Below are positions 1,887 to 7,046 of a stretch of 7,046 bases of DNA, in pieces (the first letter of the stretch is position 1; every line of letters starts with the position of its first letter). The notes below the pieces were generated by a model, which ran no database searches, had not been told where the DNA came from, and saw only the letters and a list, made by a program, of their open reading frames with translations. Both the position numbers and the translations under genes were made by a program. Origin of the DNA: a candidate division Zixibacteria bacterium SM23_81 (lineage in GTDB: Bacteria; SM23-81); the NCBI GenBank assembly GCA_001304015.1, contig LJUY01000083.1, forward strand, positions 1-7,046. Direction: 5' to 3'.

Positions 1887-3530
1887 ATGAGAAAATCGCT
1901 GAGATGGAGAGTCATCCTCATCGTCGTGGCCATCCTTCTGGCAATCTGGTATCTGTATCCCACCATCAGGCTCAACCTCCTGCCTGCCGAGGCTAAAGAG
2001 CAGATGGATCCCCAGGCTCTGTATAACCTTGAGAAGAAGACCATCAGGCTGGGCCTGGACTTAAAAGGCGGAATGCACCTGGTCATGGAGGTGGACAAGA
2101 GCAACTTGACGCCATCGGAGGCTGACGATGCCTTGGATCGAGCTCTGGAGATCATACGCAACCGCATCGATGAATTCGGCGTGTCCGAGCCGGTGATCCA
2201 GAAGCAGGGGGGAGAACGCATCATCGTGGAGCTCCCCGGGCTGCAGGATGAGACCAGGGCCAAGAAGCTCATCGGCAGAACCGCCCTCCTGGAGTTCAAG
2301 CTTCTCCAGGACGACGAGCTGTTCCAGTCTGTCCTGACCAAAATTGACCAGGCCTTGGTGGAGCAAGGAATATCGACAGAGGAGCTCGAAGAAGCAGAAG
2401 AAGAACCTCTTCCCACGCTGTTCGAAGAGGAGCTTCAGAAAGAGGAAGCGCGTATGCCGGAGTCTGCGTTGGCCGAGATGCCTTTCTCCTCCCTTCTCGT
2501 TCGGCTGGGCGCTGATCTGGCCGTCATGGAGGACAACATTCCCAAGGTAGAAAAGCTGCTGAGGAGCCCCGTAGTAGAGTCGCAAATACCAGCAGGAGCT
2601 CAACTTGCTTGGGATACTGAAGAGGAAGAATATAATGGGATCAATTATCGGCGCATCTACTTGCTATACCAGAATGCAGAGTTAACCGGCAAAACCCTGA
2701 CCAACGCTCGAGTGGAGATCGGGCAGGGGATGGATTTGAAGACGGCTAACAAGCCCTATGTGGCCGTTGAGTTTAACAAACAAGGGGCCAGAGATTTGAC
2801 TCGGGTGAGCGCCGCAAACGTTCAGAAGCGCCTGGCCATCGTGCTGGACGACAAAGTTTACAATGCACCTGTCATCGAGGAAAAGATTCCCGGTGGTAAA
2901 GCCAGAATTACCGGCAGTTTCACCATGAACGAGGCTCGCGATTTGGCCATTATCCTCAGAGCTGGAGCCCTGCCCGCGCCGGTGGAGATCATCGAGGAAC
3001 GAACCGTGGGACCCTCTCTGGGCTCCGATTCCATTCGGATGGGAGTTCAAGCAGCCATCATCGGCATGATCATCGTGGTGCTGTTCATGATCGTATACTA
3101 CAAACTCGCCGGGCTCATCGCCAATCTGGCCCTTCTCCTGAATGTGATCTTCATCATGGCCGTCTTGGCAGGACTGGGGGCCACCTTGACCCTGCCGGGA
3201 ATTGCCGGCATCATCTTGACCATCGGCATGGCCGTGGATGCTAACGTCCTCATCTTCGAGCGCATACGAGAGGAGCTTCGCGCCGGGAAAACTGTCCTCT
3301 CGGCCATCGACAGCGGTTACTCGCGAGCCTTCCGAACTATCCTCGATGCCAATCTCACCACCCTGATCACGGCCATCGTTCTCTACAACTTCGGAACCGG
3401 ACCTATTAAGGGGTTCGCTGTGACCCTTTCCATCGGCATCGTGGCCAGCATGTTCACGGCTATAGTCATCACCAGAGTTATCTTCCATTTTATTTACGCT
3501 CAACGCCCTCAGGTGAAGATCAGCATATAG
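1887..3530 (+). CDS. secD: Protein translocase subunit SecD
   Basis: SecD is an inner-membrane subunit of the SecDF complex, which uses the proton motive force to help pull exported proteins through SecYEG. The 547-residue protein starts at ATG 1887, preceded by AAGAGG (1874-1879) at 7-base spacing; a longer GTG start at 1809 lacks such support. One membrane segment lies at residues 9-26. The family motif LGLDLKGGMHL is at 55-65 and begins the periplasmic head. After YNAPVIEEKIPGG (325-337) comes the RND-like membrane block: about 384-404, 408-429, 437-455, 486-505 and 510-535. It contains GMAVDANVLIFERIREE (447-463), whose Asp451 matches the conserved proton-path Asp. The head carries an acidic stretch at about 165-190, longer than in minimal SecD proteins. 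secF follows after 40 bases. No yajC is next to it. Confidence 0.97.
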   Translation: MRKSLRWRVILIVVAILLAIWYLYPTIRLNLLPAEAKEQMDPQALYNLEKKTIRLGLDLKGGMHLVMEVDKSNLTPSEADDALDRALEIIRNRIDEFGVSEPVIQKQGGERIIVELPGLQDETRAKKLIGRTALLEFKLLQDDELFQSVLTKIDQALVEQGISTEELEEAEEEPLPTLFEEELQKEEARMPESALAEMPFSSLLVRLGADLAVMEDNIPKVEKLLRSPVVESQIPAGAQLAWDTEEEEYNGINYRRIYLLYQNAELTGKTLTNARVEIGQGMDLKTANKPYVAVEFNKQGARDLTRVSAANVQKRLAIVLDDKVYNAPVIEEKIPGGKARITGSFTMNEARDLAIILRAGALPAPVEIIEERTVGPSLGSDSIRMGVQAAIIGMIIVVLFMIVYYKLAGLIANLALLLNVIFIMAVLAGLGATLTLPGIAGIILTIGMAVDANVLIFERIREELRAGKTVLSAIDSGYSRAFRTILDANLTTLITAIVLYNFGTGPIKGFAVTLSIGIVASMFTAIVITRVIFHFIYAQRPQVKISI

Positions 3531-3570: not shown

Positions 3571-4470
3571 ATGCAAATTTTCAAAGACACGCACTTCGAT
3601 TTCGTCAACAAACGCAAGATCGCCTTTTTATTCTCAGCAGCCCTCATTGTGCTGGGGGTCATCTCCCTGGCTGTGCACAGGGGACCCTCCTTCAGCATCG
3701 ATTTTGCTGGTGGCACGCTTCTACAAATACAATTTGAAAATGACCTCTCTGTTCAGGAAATCCGCAGTGCCCTGGAAAAGATTGGCTGGGCGGATGCTGA
3801 GATACAGAAGTTCAGCCAAGGAAATGAGTTCCTCATCCGAGTGAAGAAACAGGAAGTGGGCACCATGGTTGGAGACCAGATTAAGTCTGCCCTAAGTCAG
3901 AATTTCCCGGATAACGAGTTCCAGGTTCGACGAGAGGAGAAGGTGGGACCCAAGATAGGAGAGGAGCTCAAGAGCAAAGCCGTCTGGGCTATCCTTTACG
4001 CCATGATCGGAATCCTCATCTACATCTCTTGGCGCTTCGAATTCAAGTTCGCCGTGGGAGCCATCGTAGCTCTGTTTCACGATGTCTTGATCACCGTGGG
4101 CATCTTCTCTCTTCTGAACAAAGAGATCTCCCTGGCCATTGTGGCTGCCCTTCTGACTATCGTCGGGTATTCCCTGAACGACACCATCGTCGTGTTCGAT
4201 AGAATCAGGGAAGACCTGGCTCTCATGCGAAGCCAGACCTACGAGGCGATCATCAATGCCAGCATCAACCAAACTCTCGGCCGCACTGTCATCACCTCTC
4301 TCACCACGTTCTTGGTGGTCGTCTGCCTCTTCACCCTGGGCGGAGAGGTGATTCACGATTTCGCCTTCGCCTTGATGATCGGCGTCATCGTGGGAACCTA
4401 CTCATCAATCTTCGTGGCCAGCCCCGTGCTCATCGAGTGGCACAGCCGGCTTCTGGCCAAGAAAAAATAG
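3571..4470 (+). CDS. secF: Protein translocase subunit SecF
   Basis: SecF pairs with SecD in the inner membrane to form the proton-driven export motor. The 299-residue protein has the usual length. A first membrane segment lies at about 16-34, followed by the diagnostic SIDFAGGTLLQIQF (42-55) opening the small periplasmic domain. REEKVGPKIGEEL (121-133) leads into the five-helix RND-like block, at about 136-153, 159-180, 186-206, 238-256 and 264-286. GYSLNDTIVVFDRIRED (199-215) carries Asp204 and Arg211, matching the conserved proton-relay region. FDRIRE is the counterpart of FERIRE in SecD. GVIVGTYSSIFVA (271-283) is also typical. The ATG at 3571 is preceded by GGGGA (3560-3564) at 6-base spacing. 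It shares the secD transcript and is followed by a terminator. Confidence 0.97.
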   Translation: MQIFKDTHFDFVNKRKIAFLFSAALIVLGVISLAVHRGPSFSIDFAGGTLLQIQFENDLSVQEIRSALEKIGWADAEIQKFSQGNEFLIRVKKQEVGTMVGDQIKSALSQNFPDNEFQVRREEKVGPKIGEELKSKAVWAILYAMIGILIYISWRFEFKFAVGAIVALFHDVLITVGIFSLLNKEISLAIVAALLTIVGYSLNDTIVVFDRIREDLALMRSQTYEAIINASINQTLGRTVITSLTTFLVVVCLFTLGGEVIHDFAFALMIGVIVGTYSSIFVASPVLIEWHSRLLAKKK

Positions 4471-4493
4471 CACTCATATCTCATCGTCAGGTT

Positions 4494-4508
4494 TTGTGAA
4501 GTTTTCAC
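4494..4508. promoter_or_regulatory. Imperfect Rex-like inverted repeat downstream of secF
   Basis: TTGTGAA (4494-4500), a 3-base spacer and TTCAC (4504-4508) form an inverted repeat with the same half-sites as the perfect Rex operator at 5904-5921. However, the spacing is one base short and the right arm lacks the terminal AA. It precedes the DUF579 gene by about 110 bases. Binding by Rex is doubtful on spacing grounds. Confidence 0.2.
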
Positions 4509-4557
4509 TCGGATTTCATAGATCTGAGCAGAGACCCCGGGGCGAGTTTTACAGGAC

Positions 4558-4593
4558 AAGGCTACCCTGTGTGCATCAGCTGGGTAGCCTTTT
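4558..4593 (+). terminator. Rho-independent terminator after secF / leader of the DUF579 gene
   Basis: AAGGCTACCC (4558-4567) and GGGTAGCCTT (4582-4591) form a perfect 10-bp stem around a 14-base loop, and the stem runs into TTTT (4590-4593). The T tract is short but the stem is strong. On the + strand it would end the secDF message 88 bases after the secF stop. It ends only 27 bases before the ATG at 4621, so it may also act as an attenuator in the leader of that gene. Confidence 0.7.
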
Positions 4594-4620
4594 AAACAAC
4601 AAAAACTACTGAAGACGCCG

Positions 4621-5208
4621 ATGGATTGGCTCCTTTTTATAAAACTCGTGCTGTTCAAACTCAAACACCGCGGGAGCCAGCTTTGGATAAAGGAACTGCT
4701 GCTCATCGTGAAGGCCATCCGTCATTATCCACGATGCCGTCTCTTGCTCTTCGGGCTGGGGTGGGATACGTTCCTGTGGATAGATATAAATAAAAACGGG
4801 CGCACAGTTTTCTTAGAGGACGATAAAGGTTGGTTTGAAAAAATAACGCAGCAAGCTCCCAACGCAGAGGCCTACCTCATTGATTATCCTCATAATATCA
4901 CGCAATGGAAAACATTGCTGGACAAACCACGTGAATTGGAGTTGAAGTTACCAGAGGAGGTCACTCGCACCAGTTGGGACGTCATCGTTGTGGATGCCCC
5001 GGCCGGGTATCGCATTGTCGAGGAACAGGCCGGGCGTATGTCGAGCATCTACATGGCATCCAAATTGATCAAAAAAGGCGGCGATGTCTTCGTGCACGAT
5101 TGCACAAGAGAACTCGAGAGGGCTTATGCGGAGAGATATCTGGGAGAGGAGAACTTCATCTGTGAAATCAAGGGGCGGGCTCTTCTAAGGCAATATAGGG
5201 GCTCTTAG
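4621..5208 (+). CDS. DUF579 (Polysacc_synt_4) family protein, plant glucuronoxylan methyltransferase-like
   Basis: The 195-residue protein matches my recollection of the DUF579 family, known mainly from plants. There GXMT enzymes move a methyl group from S-adenosylmethionine to O-4 of glucuronic acid on xylan, and IRX15 proteins affect xylan. Family motifs appear in order: LLFGLGWDTFLW (42-53, the S-adenosylmethionine glycine motif region), GRTVFLEDD (60-68), VDAPAGY (124-130), GRMSSIYMA (138-146) and DVFVHD (155-160). No signal peptide or clear membrane helix is seen, so it is probably cytosolic. The substrate in this organism is unknown. The ATG at 4621 has only a weak GAAG upstream; the conserved core begins near residue 40, so a GTG at 4648 is possible. 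Bases 4741-4980 are about 46% GC by hand count, lower than sampled pdxJ and secF blocks, a mild hint of transfer. Confidence 0.8.
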   Translation: MDWLLFIKLVLFKLKHRGSQLWIKELLLIVKAIRHYPRCRLLLFGLGWDTFLWIDINKNGRTVFLEDDKGWFEKITQQAPNAEAYLIDYPHNITQWKTLLDKPRELELKLPEEVTRTSWDVIVVDAPAGYRIVEEQAGRMSSIYMASKLIKKGGDVFVHDCTRELERAYAERYLGEENFICEIKGRALLRQYRGS

Positions 5209-5211
5209 GCC

Positions 5212-5248
5212 GAGCTACTGGTTGTTGGACACCGTCAGCAACCAGCTC
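5212..5248 (+). other. Hairpin after the DUF579 gene, without a T tract
   Basis: CTGGTTG (5218-5224) pairs perfectly with CAACCAG (5239-5245). The stem can extend through GAG (5212-5214) with CTC (5246-5248) if CTA is bulged. It starts just after the TAG stop. No run of T follows, so it is not a canonical intrinsic terminator; it may be an RNA-stabilising 3' end or incidental. Confidence 0.4.
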
Positions 5249-5338
5249 GTCTTGAGAAAAACACCTCTGTTTTCATCCATAGTGAACAAGCCAAATCTTC
5301 ACTGGCCACCTTTTACTTAATGACGGGATTATCGATCC

Positions 5339-5842
5339 TTGCAAATACTTGCCTTGATAATCTTTGGCCTCGTCCTCGTCCTCGGGCTTGTGGCCATCCC
5401 CCTCGGCTTCCCGGGGACATTTATTATCTTCGGTGATGCTTTATGTTACGCGCTCATAACCCGTTTTCGGGGCGCCATCACCGTGAAGTTCTCGCTGGCG
5501 CTCCTGGCCATAGCCCTTTTCGCCGAGCTGATGGAATTTCTTCTGGGCACCTTCACGACTCTCAAGTTCGGTGCCTCAAAGTGGGGCGTGGTGGGAACCT
5601 TGGCCGGCGGCATTCTGGGAGCTTCCTTCGGGTCCGCTGCCTTTCCATTTGTGGGAACTCTGGTGGGCGCCATCATCGGCGCATTTCTGGGAGCCTTCAT
5701 CCTGGAGTACCTCCATCGTGACAATCATGCAGCGGCAGCCAAAGCTGGATTCGGCGCTTTCGTGGGAAAAATCCTGGGCATGACCATCGCCCTGGCCTGT
5801 GCTATCGCCATGATCGCCTTGATCCTCATTCGCCTCATTTGA
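5339..5842 (+). CDS. DUF456 family integral membrane protein
   Basis: This is a 167-residue, very hydrophobic protein of unknown function. It begins with a membrane segment (about 3-20) and the family's PLGFPGTFIIFGDALCYAL (21-39). A segment at about 50-70 follows, then AELMEF (62-67) and KFGASKWGVVGTLAGGILG (76-94). A glycine-rich stretch with repeated GxxxG spacing reaches LGAFILEYL (117-125), and the last hydrophobic segment is at 136-165. This arrangement is that of DUF456. No ATG is available: an in-frame TGA lies at 5321-5323, and TTG 5339 is the first plausible start, with a weak GACGGGA (5322-5328) 10 bases upstream; TTG 5354 is an alternative. It lies alone between two 110-130 base gaps, and neighbours give no functional clue. 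Confidence 0.85.
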   Translation: MQILALIIFGLVLVLGLVAIPLGFPGTFIIFGDALCYALITRFRGAITVKFSLALLAIALFAELMEFLLGTFTTLKFGASKWGVVGTLAGGILGASFGSAAFPFVGTLVGAIIGAFLGAFILEYLHRDNHAAAAKAGFGAFVGKILGMTIALACAIAMIALILIRLI

Positions 5843-5864: not shown

Positions 5865-5893
5865 TTGACAGCCTCCCCAGCCAGCCCTATATT
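5865..5893 (+). promoter_or_regulatory. Sigma-70-type promoter for rex
   Basis: TTGACA (5865-5870), a 17-base spacer and TATATT (5888-5893) give a near-ideal vegetative promoter. The predicted start of transcription is about 5900, immediately before the Rex operator. It begins 23 bases after the DUF456 stop codon. Confidence 0.88.
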
Positions 5894-5903
5894 CTGTGTC
5901 GGA

Positions 5904-5921
5904 TTGTGAAAGTGTTCACAA
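5904..5921. promoter_or_regulatory. Rex operator (autoregulatory)
   Basis: TTGTGAAAGTGTTCACAA is a perfect 7+7 inverted repeat (TTGTGAA, four bases, TTCACAA). It equals the established Rex recognition site TTGTGAAnnnnTTCACAA. It lies about 3 to 21 bases downstream of the predicted transcription start and 34 bases before the rex ATG. Bound Rex would therefore block initiation or promoter clearance and repress its own gene when NADH is low. Confidence 0.92.
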
Positions 5922-5955: not shown

Positions 5956-6618
5956 ATGAGCAGGATCTCCGACGCCACCATCACGCGATTGTCCCAGTAC
6001 TATCGTTCTCTGGCCTCTCTGGAAGAGGGCGGGCAGGAGATGGTTTCCTCCATGGCACTGGCTAGAAAACATGGAGTTACGCCTGCCCAGGTGAGGAAAG
6101 ACCTGTCCTGCTTTGGTCAGTTCGGAACCCGCGGGCTAGGATATTCGGTTTGTCAACTCAAAGAGACCATCGCCCGTATTCTGGGGCTTCACCGAATTTG
6201 GAATGTGGCCCTTGTGGGGGCGGGCAGCCTGGGGTCGGCTCTGATATCCTACAAGGAGTTTAAGAGGCAGGGATTTCACATCGTCGCCGTATTCGACAAC
6301 GATCTCGACAAGGTGGGAAAAAAGAGGCGTGGATTGACCATCTTGGACATTCGACGTCTGCCCCAGATGGTCAAGAAGTTGGACATCAACTTGGCCATCA
6401 TCGCCGTGCCTAAAGACGCGGCCCAATCCGTCGCTGACCTCCTGATTAAGGCGGGCCTCAAGATGATCCTCAACTTCGCGCCGATAAGCTTAAAAGCCTC
6501 CCCGGGGATAACCATCAGAAACGTAAACATGGCCATCGAGCTCGAGGCCCTCAGCTACAGATTGGTCGCAGATAAGTCTTTTCGGCCCGGCAACAACCCT
6601 CAGTTAACGCCCGTATAG
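5956..6618 (+). CDS. rex: Redox-sensing transcriptional repressor Rex
   Basis: Rex is a cytosolic dimeric repressor that senses the NADH/NAD+ ratio. It binds DNA when NADH is low and releases when NADH rises, inducing fermentative, respiratory or hydrogen-metabolism genes. The 220 residues match the usual length. The N-terminal winged helix (1 to about 80) includes ISDATITRLSQYYRSL (4-19) and the recognition region QVRKDLSCFGQFGTRGLGY (45-63). The Rossmann domain begins at NVALVGAGSLGSAL (83-96), with VFDND (112-116) and NFAP (173-176), and ends in the domain-swapped helix RNVNMAIELEALSY (188-201). An in-frame TGA at 5950-5952 makes ATG 5956 the first start; GAGGGG (5939-5944) is the likely ribosome site at a longish 11 bases. 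Its promoter carries a perfect Rex operator. No other Rex target is obvious here. Confidence 0.97.
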   Translation: MSRISDATITRLSQYYRSLASLEEGGQEMVSSMALARKHGVTPAQVRKDLSCFGQFGTRGLGYSVCQLKETIARILGLHRIWNVALVGAGSLGSALISYKEFKRQGFHIVAVFDNDLDKVGKKRRGLTILDIRRLPQMVKKLDINLAIIAVPKDAAQSVADLLIKAGLKMILNFAPISLKASPGITIRNVNMAIELEALSYRLVADKSFRPGNNPQLTPV

Positions 6619-7046
6619 CTTTCTTCTTCTGGCCTCTAGAAGATCGTTTTGCATGCCAGCAAACTCCGCCGCCGTGAGCACCTCCACTTCCCGCAATTTG
6701 GCTGCAGAAAAGACTCCCTCCAATTTCTCCTTCCATTTGAGCTCTCGCAGAAGATGATGATCGAGAACCAGCTTTTTCACCTGGGTTTTCTCCACTATCT
6801 CCGATAATTTTTGCGTGGCCTGGTGAAGGCTCTCCATGGAGTAGCGCCGCCCTAACATATAGGTCAACGGACCGTCACAGAAAATCACCTGGGGATTCTC
6901 CTGAAATAGAAAGCTCGTCTGTTCCTTCGACAAGGGGCCCTGGACATCGGAGGTGTGCAGAAACTTGCTCTCCTCCTGAACACAGACCTGGACCACGTAA
7001 CCAAGTTTCGGCCCTGGGCCATGAAAAACGGGCGGAGAAAACCGGA
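6604..7046 (-). CDS. UPF0282-type metallo-beta-lactamase-fold hydrolase, C-terminal part
   Basis: The frame stays open to the right edge, so about half of a protein of roughly 300 residues is missing. The GTG at 6996 is only an internal codon: further upstream the reading continues FHGPGPKLGYVV, a segment expected inside this family. Of 146 visible residues, the motifs are HTSDVQGP (from base 6957 downward), VIFCDGPLTYMLG (near 6885-6847) and LVLDHHLLREL (near 6771-6739). Asp in SDVQGP and the DHH pair are the expected metal-site residues of the fold. I recall this pattern from UPF0282 proteins, which are described mostly from archaea and whose function is unknown. The N-terminal HxHxDH-type motif is outside the window. 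It ends with TAA at 6604-6606, inside the last codons of rex on the other strand. Confidence 0.75.
   Translation of the reverse strand, partial: RFSPPVFHGPGPKLGYVVQVCVQEESKFLHTSDVQGPLSKEQTSFLFQENPQVIFCDGPLTYMLGRRYSMESLHQATQKLSEIVEKTQVKKLVLDHHLLRELKWKEKLEGVFSAAKLREVEVLTAAEFAGMQNDLLEARRRKLYGR

Follow-up and report, generated by a model that had tools for sequence, protein, structure and literature searches.

We consider it likely that the open reading frame (ORF) at 4621-5208 of the DNA analysed here encodes a horizontally acquired, soluble, SAM-dependent and probably metal-dependent sugar O-methyltransferase of the DUF579 family, which would act on a surface glycan. The DNA in question, hereafter the window, is one whole contig (C52) of 7046 bases belonging to a 3.07-Mb draft genome (92.6% complete), where the DUF579 gene is found in a single copy. 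A sequence-only reading of the window had already pointed to the plant-like character of this gene; to this we add an empty site in a related genome, a linkage of relatives with glycosyltransferase genes, a probable metal site, and divergent family members in many uncultured phage contigs. The features of the window are the following:

1-999, divergent: polysaccharide deacetylase
1027-1740, + strand: pdxJ
about 1887-3530, + strand: secD
3571-4470, + strand: secF
4473..5338, no strand: inserted DNA between secF and the DUF456 gene, approximate extent, from alignment with contig L046 of genome G001 (reverse complement)
4558..4593, + strand: terminator-like hairpin and short T run, AAGGCTACCC-N14-GGGTAGCCTTTT, between secF and the DUF579 gene; perfect 10-bp inverted repeat
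4621..5208, + strand: DUF579/PF21729 predicted SAM-dependent sugar O-methyltransferase, 195 aa (PF21729 9.2e-38; AlphaFold2 pLDDT 94.6, class I fold)
5218..5245, + strand: stem-loop just past the DUF579 stop codon (RNA fold of 5195-5300, -34.5 kcal/mol, z -3.3)
about 5339-5842, + strand: DUF456 gene
5956-6618, + strand: rex
6604-7044, - strand: partial gene, PRK04286 family match

The ORF starts with ATG, ends with TAG and encodes 195 aa. In a Pfam profile search, the product matched PF21729 (IRX15_IRX15L_GXM), the profile of the plant DUF579 family of IRX15, IRX15L and GXM, at 9.2e-38 and 130.1 bits against a cut-off of 27.8, which confirms the family membership proposed earlier. The accession given for it at that time, PF04669, is outdated and now denotes PBDC1, which has no match in the genome, nor does it appear among the Pfam matches of the protein (E up to 1). 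The A. thaliana family profile TIGR01627 (A_thal_3515) was matched at 5.3e-36 and 124.4 bits, under the NCBIfam cut-off of 149.85. All five motifs listed in the sequence-only reading (FGLGWDT, GRTVFLEDD, VDAPAGY, GRMSSIY and DVFVHD) are indeed carried by the ORF, and the order FGLGxD, FLEDD, VDAPxGY, GRMxSIY, VFVHD is presumably that of plant GXM proteins, as checked only through the profile. The PF21729 alignment falls into two stretches (profile positions 2-82 and 105-181 of 189), about 22 positions (~83-104) being skipped, so that the protein is shorter than the model. No membrane anchor is present, as had been claimed: hydropathy over 19 residues peaks at 1.03, and a short amphipathic helix makes up the N-terminus. 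In its length, its solubility, the missing Golgi anchor, the skipped profile stretch and the score under the TIGR01627 cut-off, the protein differs from plant GXM. Calling it a minimal catalytic core is apt as a description of size, other bacterial relatives being of similar length, and says nothing on catalysis.

The stop-to-stop open frame around the gene spans 206 codons only, in keeping with the missing anchor. A coding function of the ORF is supported by its being kept across phyla and by a dN of 0.18 vs a dS of 1.0 between two DUF579 copies of one Spirochaetales genome. A PDB sequence search with the protein gave chance matches only and no sequence relative. The product is a new member of a known family already sporadically annotated in bacteria: a 'TIGR01627 domain-containing protein' of Priestia megaterium, WP_221785236.1, is 43% identical to it over residues 20-183. 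That relative is encoded within a polysaccharide locus of a plasmid, whereas the window gene is a lone chromosomal insertion.

The class I methyltransferase fold expected in the sequence-only reading was recovered in the predicted structure. AlphaFold2, supplied with an alignment of 28 sequences (window, bacterial and phage), gave a model with a pLDDT of 94.6 and a pTM of 0.92, for which 990 of 1000 aligned chains in a structural comparison reached Z >= 8, the top 50 being nearly all methyltransferases. The closest solved structures were TrmR (Z 15.8), the mycobacterial polysaccharide 1-O-methyltransferase MeT1 (Z 15.8, rmsd 3.0, 162 residues aligned) and the Mg-containing mycinamicin 3'-O-methyltransferase MycF (Z 15.2, rmsd 2.9, 166 aligned), followed by many COMT-like metal-dependent enzymes at 13.5-15. 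With rows within Z 1 of one another taken as tied, this neighbour list assigns the model to a COMT-like O-methyltransferase fold and names no single relative. Methyltransferases of tRNA and of catechol are tied with these among the nearest folds, and hence the substrate cannot be read from the fold. In a viral fold library, the best match was the uncultured phage protein A0A6J7WRU7 (1.5e-7, 18% identity), and the other matches were general methyltransferases.

Residues L42, F44, G45, G47, D49, F64, E66, W119, D120, D125, P127, R139, D160, R163 and E166 are invariant in 28 of the 28 bacterial and phage sequences, thereby covering the core FGxGxD, E66, VDxP, R139 and D160/R163/E166, for which the agreement with plants is seen via the profile only. 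Placed on the model, the candidate functional residues are:

4750..4767, + strand: glycine-rich loop FGLGWD (residues 44-49), predicted SAM-binding motif I, at the end of model strand 40-44; F44, G45, G47 and D49 invariant in 28 homologues
4816..4818, + strand: acidic E66, predicted SAM ribose contact at the end of strand 2 (61-66); invariant in 28 homologues
4993..4995, + strand: D125 (VDAP), predicted metal/active-site Asp after strand 4 (119-124); invariant in 28 homologues
5095..5100, + strand: H159-D160, predicted metal/active-site pair after strand 5 (150-158); D160 invariant

Residue 159 is H in 21/28 and D in 7/28 homologues; both H and D are able to bind metal. In COMT, Mg2+ is bound by one Asp together with a neighbouring Asp-Asn pair (PMC4118827); going by secondary structure and conservation, D125 and H159-D160 would fall where COMT-like enzymes carry their metal ligands. 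We therefore regard D125 and H159-D160 as a probable metal site of the model, and their placement, the COMT ligands and the presence of CoCl2 in assays of poplar GXM (PMC3921138) together suggest a metal-dependent mechanism. Herein, SAM would be bound within the Rossmann fold through the FGxGxD loop and E66, while D125 and H159-D160 would bind a divalent metal which, by analogy with Mg2+ in COMT-like enzymes, may position and activate a sugar hydroxyl. The methyl group would then pass from SAM to a hydroxyl of a surface polysaccharide or its precursor, this acceptor presumably being the product of glycosyltransferases whose genes lie in other parts of the genome.

Characterised enzymes set the frame for such a mechanism. 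MycE and MycF are sugar O-methyltransferases. MeT1 acts on oligomannosides and was assayed with SAM and MgCl2 (PMC9883506); the crystal of MycF likewise contains Mg. These activities indicate that a COMT-like fold serves sugars. MeT1 and MycF share the fold with the window protein at Z of about 15-16, while belonging to other sequence families (11-14% identity). Closer in sequence are the plant enzymes GXM1-3 and PtrGXM1-4 of DUF579 clade I, which have the PF21729 domain in common with the window protein and for which SAM-dependent O-methylation is established (PMC3921138); plant DUF579 enzymes methylate glucuronic acid (GlcA) with SAM, with CoCl2 in the assays (PMC3921138, PMC6508755). From clade III of the same family, AGM1 and AGM2 carry out 4-O-methylation of arabinogalactan GlcA (PMC6508755), so DUF579 enzymes can change the acceptor glycan while keeping GlcA. 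Unlike the window protein, AGM1 and AGM2 are eukaryotic and Golgi-located.

A sugar on a bacterial glycan is the most likely target because relatives in bacteria and aquatic phages often adjoin sugar-transferring enzymes. Taken as a plain listing of loci, the linkage is as follows. At three Spirochaetota loci, related to one another, a GT4-type gene is divergent to the DUF579 gene, and the partner proteins are 58% identical; another Spirochaetales copy (L005) sits at a contig end. Paceibacter has a GT2-DUF579 fusion with an adjoining GT8 gene. In Thermoactinomyces, a TOD1/MUCI70-type glycosyltransferase gene lies 17 bases upstream of the DUF579 gene. The DUF579 relative on plasmid unnamed2 of Priestia megaterium has galU, glycosyltransferase and pyruvyltransferase genes nearby. 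Finally, on one phage contig (L010, 4269-8591), genes for a GT29-like protein, a cytidylyltransferase and an HpcH-type aldolase follow immediately downstream. Through their neighbours and fusions, the relatives lend indirect support to the earlier suggestion that the protein methylates a bacterial glycan. Counting against it, no glycan gene adjoins the window copy, and likewise several Smithella relatives (L008, L056 and L057) have no clear glycosyltransferase neighbour as judged by eye.

It is at this point that a different substrate has to be weighed. The acceptor of an enzyme with the same fold might be a small molecule or secondary metabolite, or else an aromatic hydroxyl like those methylated by caffeoyl-CoA and catechol O-methyltransferases; most of the structural list, at Z of about 14, consists of COMT-like enzymes that O-methylate small molecules, and the window gene stands alone, with no adjoining glycan gene. 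However, the protein belongs to PF21729, whose characterised plant members act on polysaccharide glucuronic acid, and among its relatives fusion with glycosyltransferases or linkage to them occurs, which leads us to consider a small-molecule substrate unlikely.

The preferred reading, a sugar O-methyltransferase, fits the capacity of the host. It had been noted that no glycan-synthesis gene lies beside the ORF; this holds for the adjacent secF, DUF456 and rex genes and does not hold for the genome, in which 21 GT4-type matches and two full-length nucleotide-sugar dehydrogenases lie away from the DUF579 gene. One dehydrogenase is a TuaD-like UDP-glucose 6-dehydrogenase (539 bits, under the TuaD equivalog cut-off of 700), the other being of the UDP-N-acetylhexosamine type. 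Because of these two enzymes and the GT4-type matches, UDP-GlcA and surface glycans are plausible in this organism. A search of the genome for the GT4 partner of the Spirochaete loci found general GT4 similarity of 24-32% only and no clear ortholog. The methylated sugar itself cannot be told from sequence. Glucuronic acid is a possible substrate, considering the plant enzymes and the TuaD-like dehydrogenase of the host, and by that analogy its O-4 might tentatively be named as the single most likely target, another sugar being as plausible.

How did the gene arrive in the window? Genome G001, of the same family, has the DUF456 gene and rex right behind secF and lacks the ~870 bases in which the DUF579 gene lies. 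When the window is aligned with the reverse complement of L046, similarity extends through secF as far as 4472 and sets in again close to where the DUF456 gene begins, with identities of 83% for the secF end and 75% for the DUF456-rex stretch; no repeats marking the insertion ends were found. Among the genomes searched, only three others belong to the same phylum, a DUF579 copy being found in none of them, and the two besides G001 have unrelated genes after secF. GC content is 0.485 in the insert and 0.552 in the window outside it, and the GC3 of the DUF579 gene is 0.59 vs 0.66-0.74 for its neighbours. The simplest reading is that the gene was inserted in the lineage of the window, loss from the other genomes being less likely because of the GC composition. 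To judge from the DNA, then, the DUF579 gene appears to have been acquired horizontally.

Such a recent arrival could also be a passenger, unused or decaying in its host. It is a lone inserted gene with the terminator-like hairpin upstream (RNA fold of 4540-4625, z -2.4), a pattern scan upstream found no promoter, inspection by eye gave no clear Shine-Dalgarno sequence, and its GC3 is still unlike that of the neighbouring genes. On the other hand, the ORF is intact, retains all invariant residues and yields a confident structure model, and we hold an unused or decaying passenger to be quite improbable, keeping to a functional sugar O-methyltransferase.

The DUF579 family is sparse in the sampled bacteria. 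Around the window, 1/60 genomes has a match, namely the window's own; in the phyla of the Spirochaetales, Thermoactinomyces and Smithella genomes, the counts are 3/296, 1/398 and 3/297, that is 0.3-1% of genomes, each set including the genome that led there. A scan of a named-genome collection with two short patterns, which gives a lower bound, found at least five loci, in Spirochaetales, Victivallaceae, Paceibacter, Smithella and Thermoactinomyces. We did not count the Victivallaceae contig (L006, 3465 bases, coverage 2.4) as a separate lineage: it agrees with Smithella L008 in gene order and close sequence and is probably mis-binned. The nearest kin of the window protein are Spirochaetota proteins of about 55% identity, and in an unrooted tree of prokaryotic and phage sequences it clusters with four Spirochaete copies (support 97/82). 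An RNA-modifying methyltransferase of the TrmR or fibrillarin kind, in whose favour TrmR ties for the top structural Z (15.8) and fibrillarin homologues occur in the structural lists, is highly improbable in view of this patchy distribution and the insertion, ill-suited to a housekeeping RNA enzyme, of identities of about 10-20% to the TrmR and fibrillarin structures, and of the glycosyltransferase linkage of relatives.

Relatives are also carried by 46 viral-contig loci, near-identical phages included, of which 23 distinct sequences entered the tree. These contigs probably represent T4-like phages, since several of them bear T4-type gp32- and UvsX-like genes (by eye). Cultured phage records gave no match with three queries (the window protein and two phage homologues), nor did PHROGs. 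The phage relatives found in glycan islands are divergent members from uncultured aquatic phages, and their occurrence suggests, as far as sequence goes, that some aquatic phages may methylate glycans, either of their own surface or of the host's. It is tempting to suppose that the DUF579 glycan O-methyltransferases form an ancient family of bacteria and phages, moved between phyla partly by aquatic phages building methylated glycans, with the plant xylan and arabinogalactan enzymes as a late offshoot and with prokaryotic members methylating sugars other than GlcA, e.g., the nonulosonic acids that adjacent phage genes produce; we put this forward as a speculation that is more doubtful than not. 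The functional work on the family that we found in the literature is all on plant cell walls, and a literature search for the plant motif found nothing. Prokaryotic members might show by which residues sugar and position are determined, they are a possible source of the plant DUF579 genes, and the small soluble ones from bacteria and phages would lend themselves to solving a first crystal structure, no sequence relative having been found in the PDB.

Several further observations concern the relatives. The Spirochaetales genome G060 has two DUF579 copies (L049 and L005), each other's nearest relatives. At 8261-9522 of the Thermoactinomyces locus (L009), two families best known from plants, the TOD1/MUCI70-type glycosyltransferase and DUF579, stand side by side in a bacterium. 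On phage contigs L010 and L058-L068, DUF579 genes are found in glycan islands with genes for nucleotide-sugar transferase, GT29 sialyltransferase-like, cytidylyltransferase and HpcH-type aldolase proteins. Longer phage proteins of 446-907 aa hold the DUF579 domain within a larger chain: L003 3870-5540 (the rest of which has no Pfam match), L066 4885-6540, L063 5212-6552 and L086 4582-7305.

Finally, we would comment on rex. An imperfect Rex-like half-site pair with spacing off, TTGTGAAGTTTTCACT, which may be due to chance, is seen at 4494-4509 of the window, within the insert and ahead of the DUF579 gene. Before rex itself, at 5865-5921, a strong sigma-70-like promoter (TTGACA-17-TATATT) is followed by a perfect Rex-type operator, TTGTGAAAGTGTTCACAA, which is kept in G001 with one change, TTGTGAAAGTCTTCACAA; such an arrangement suggests that rex is probably self-regulated.
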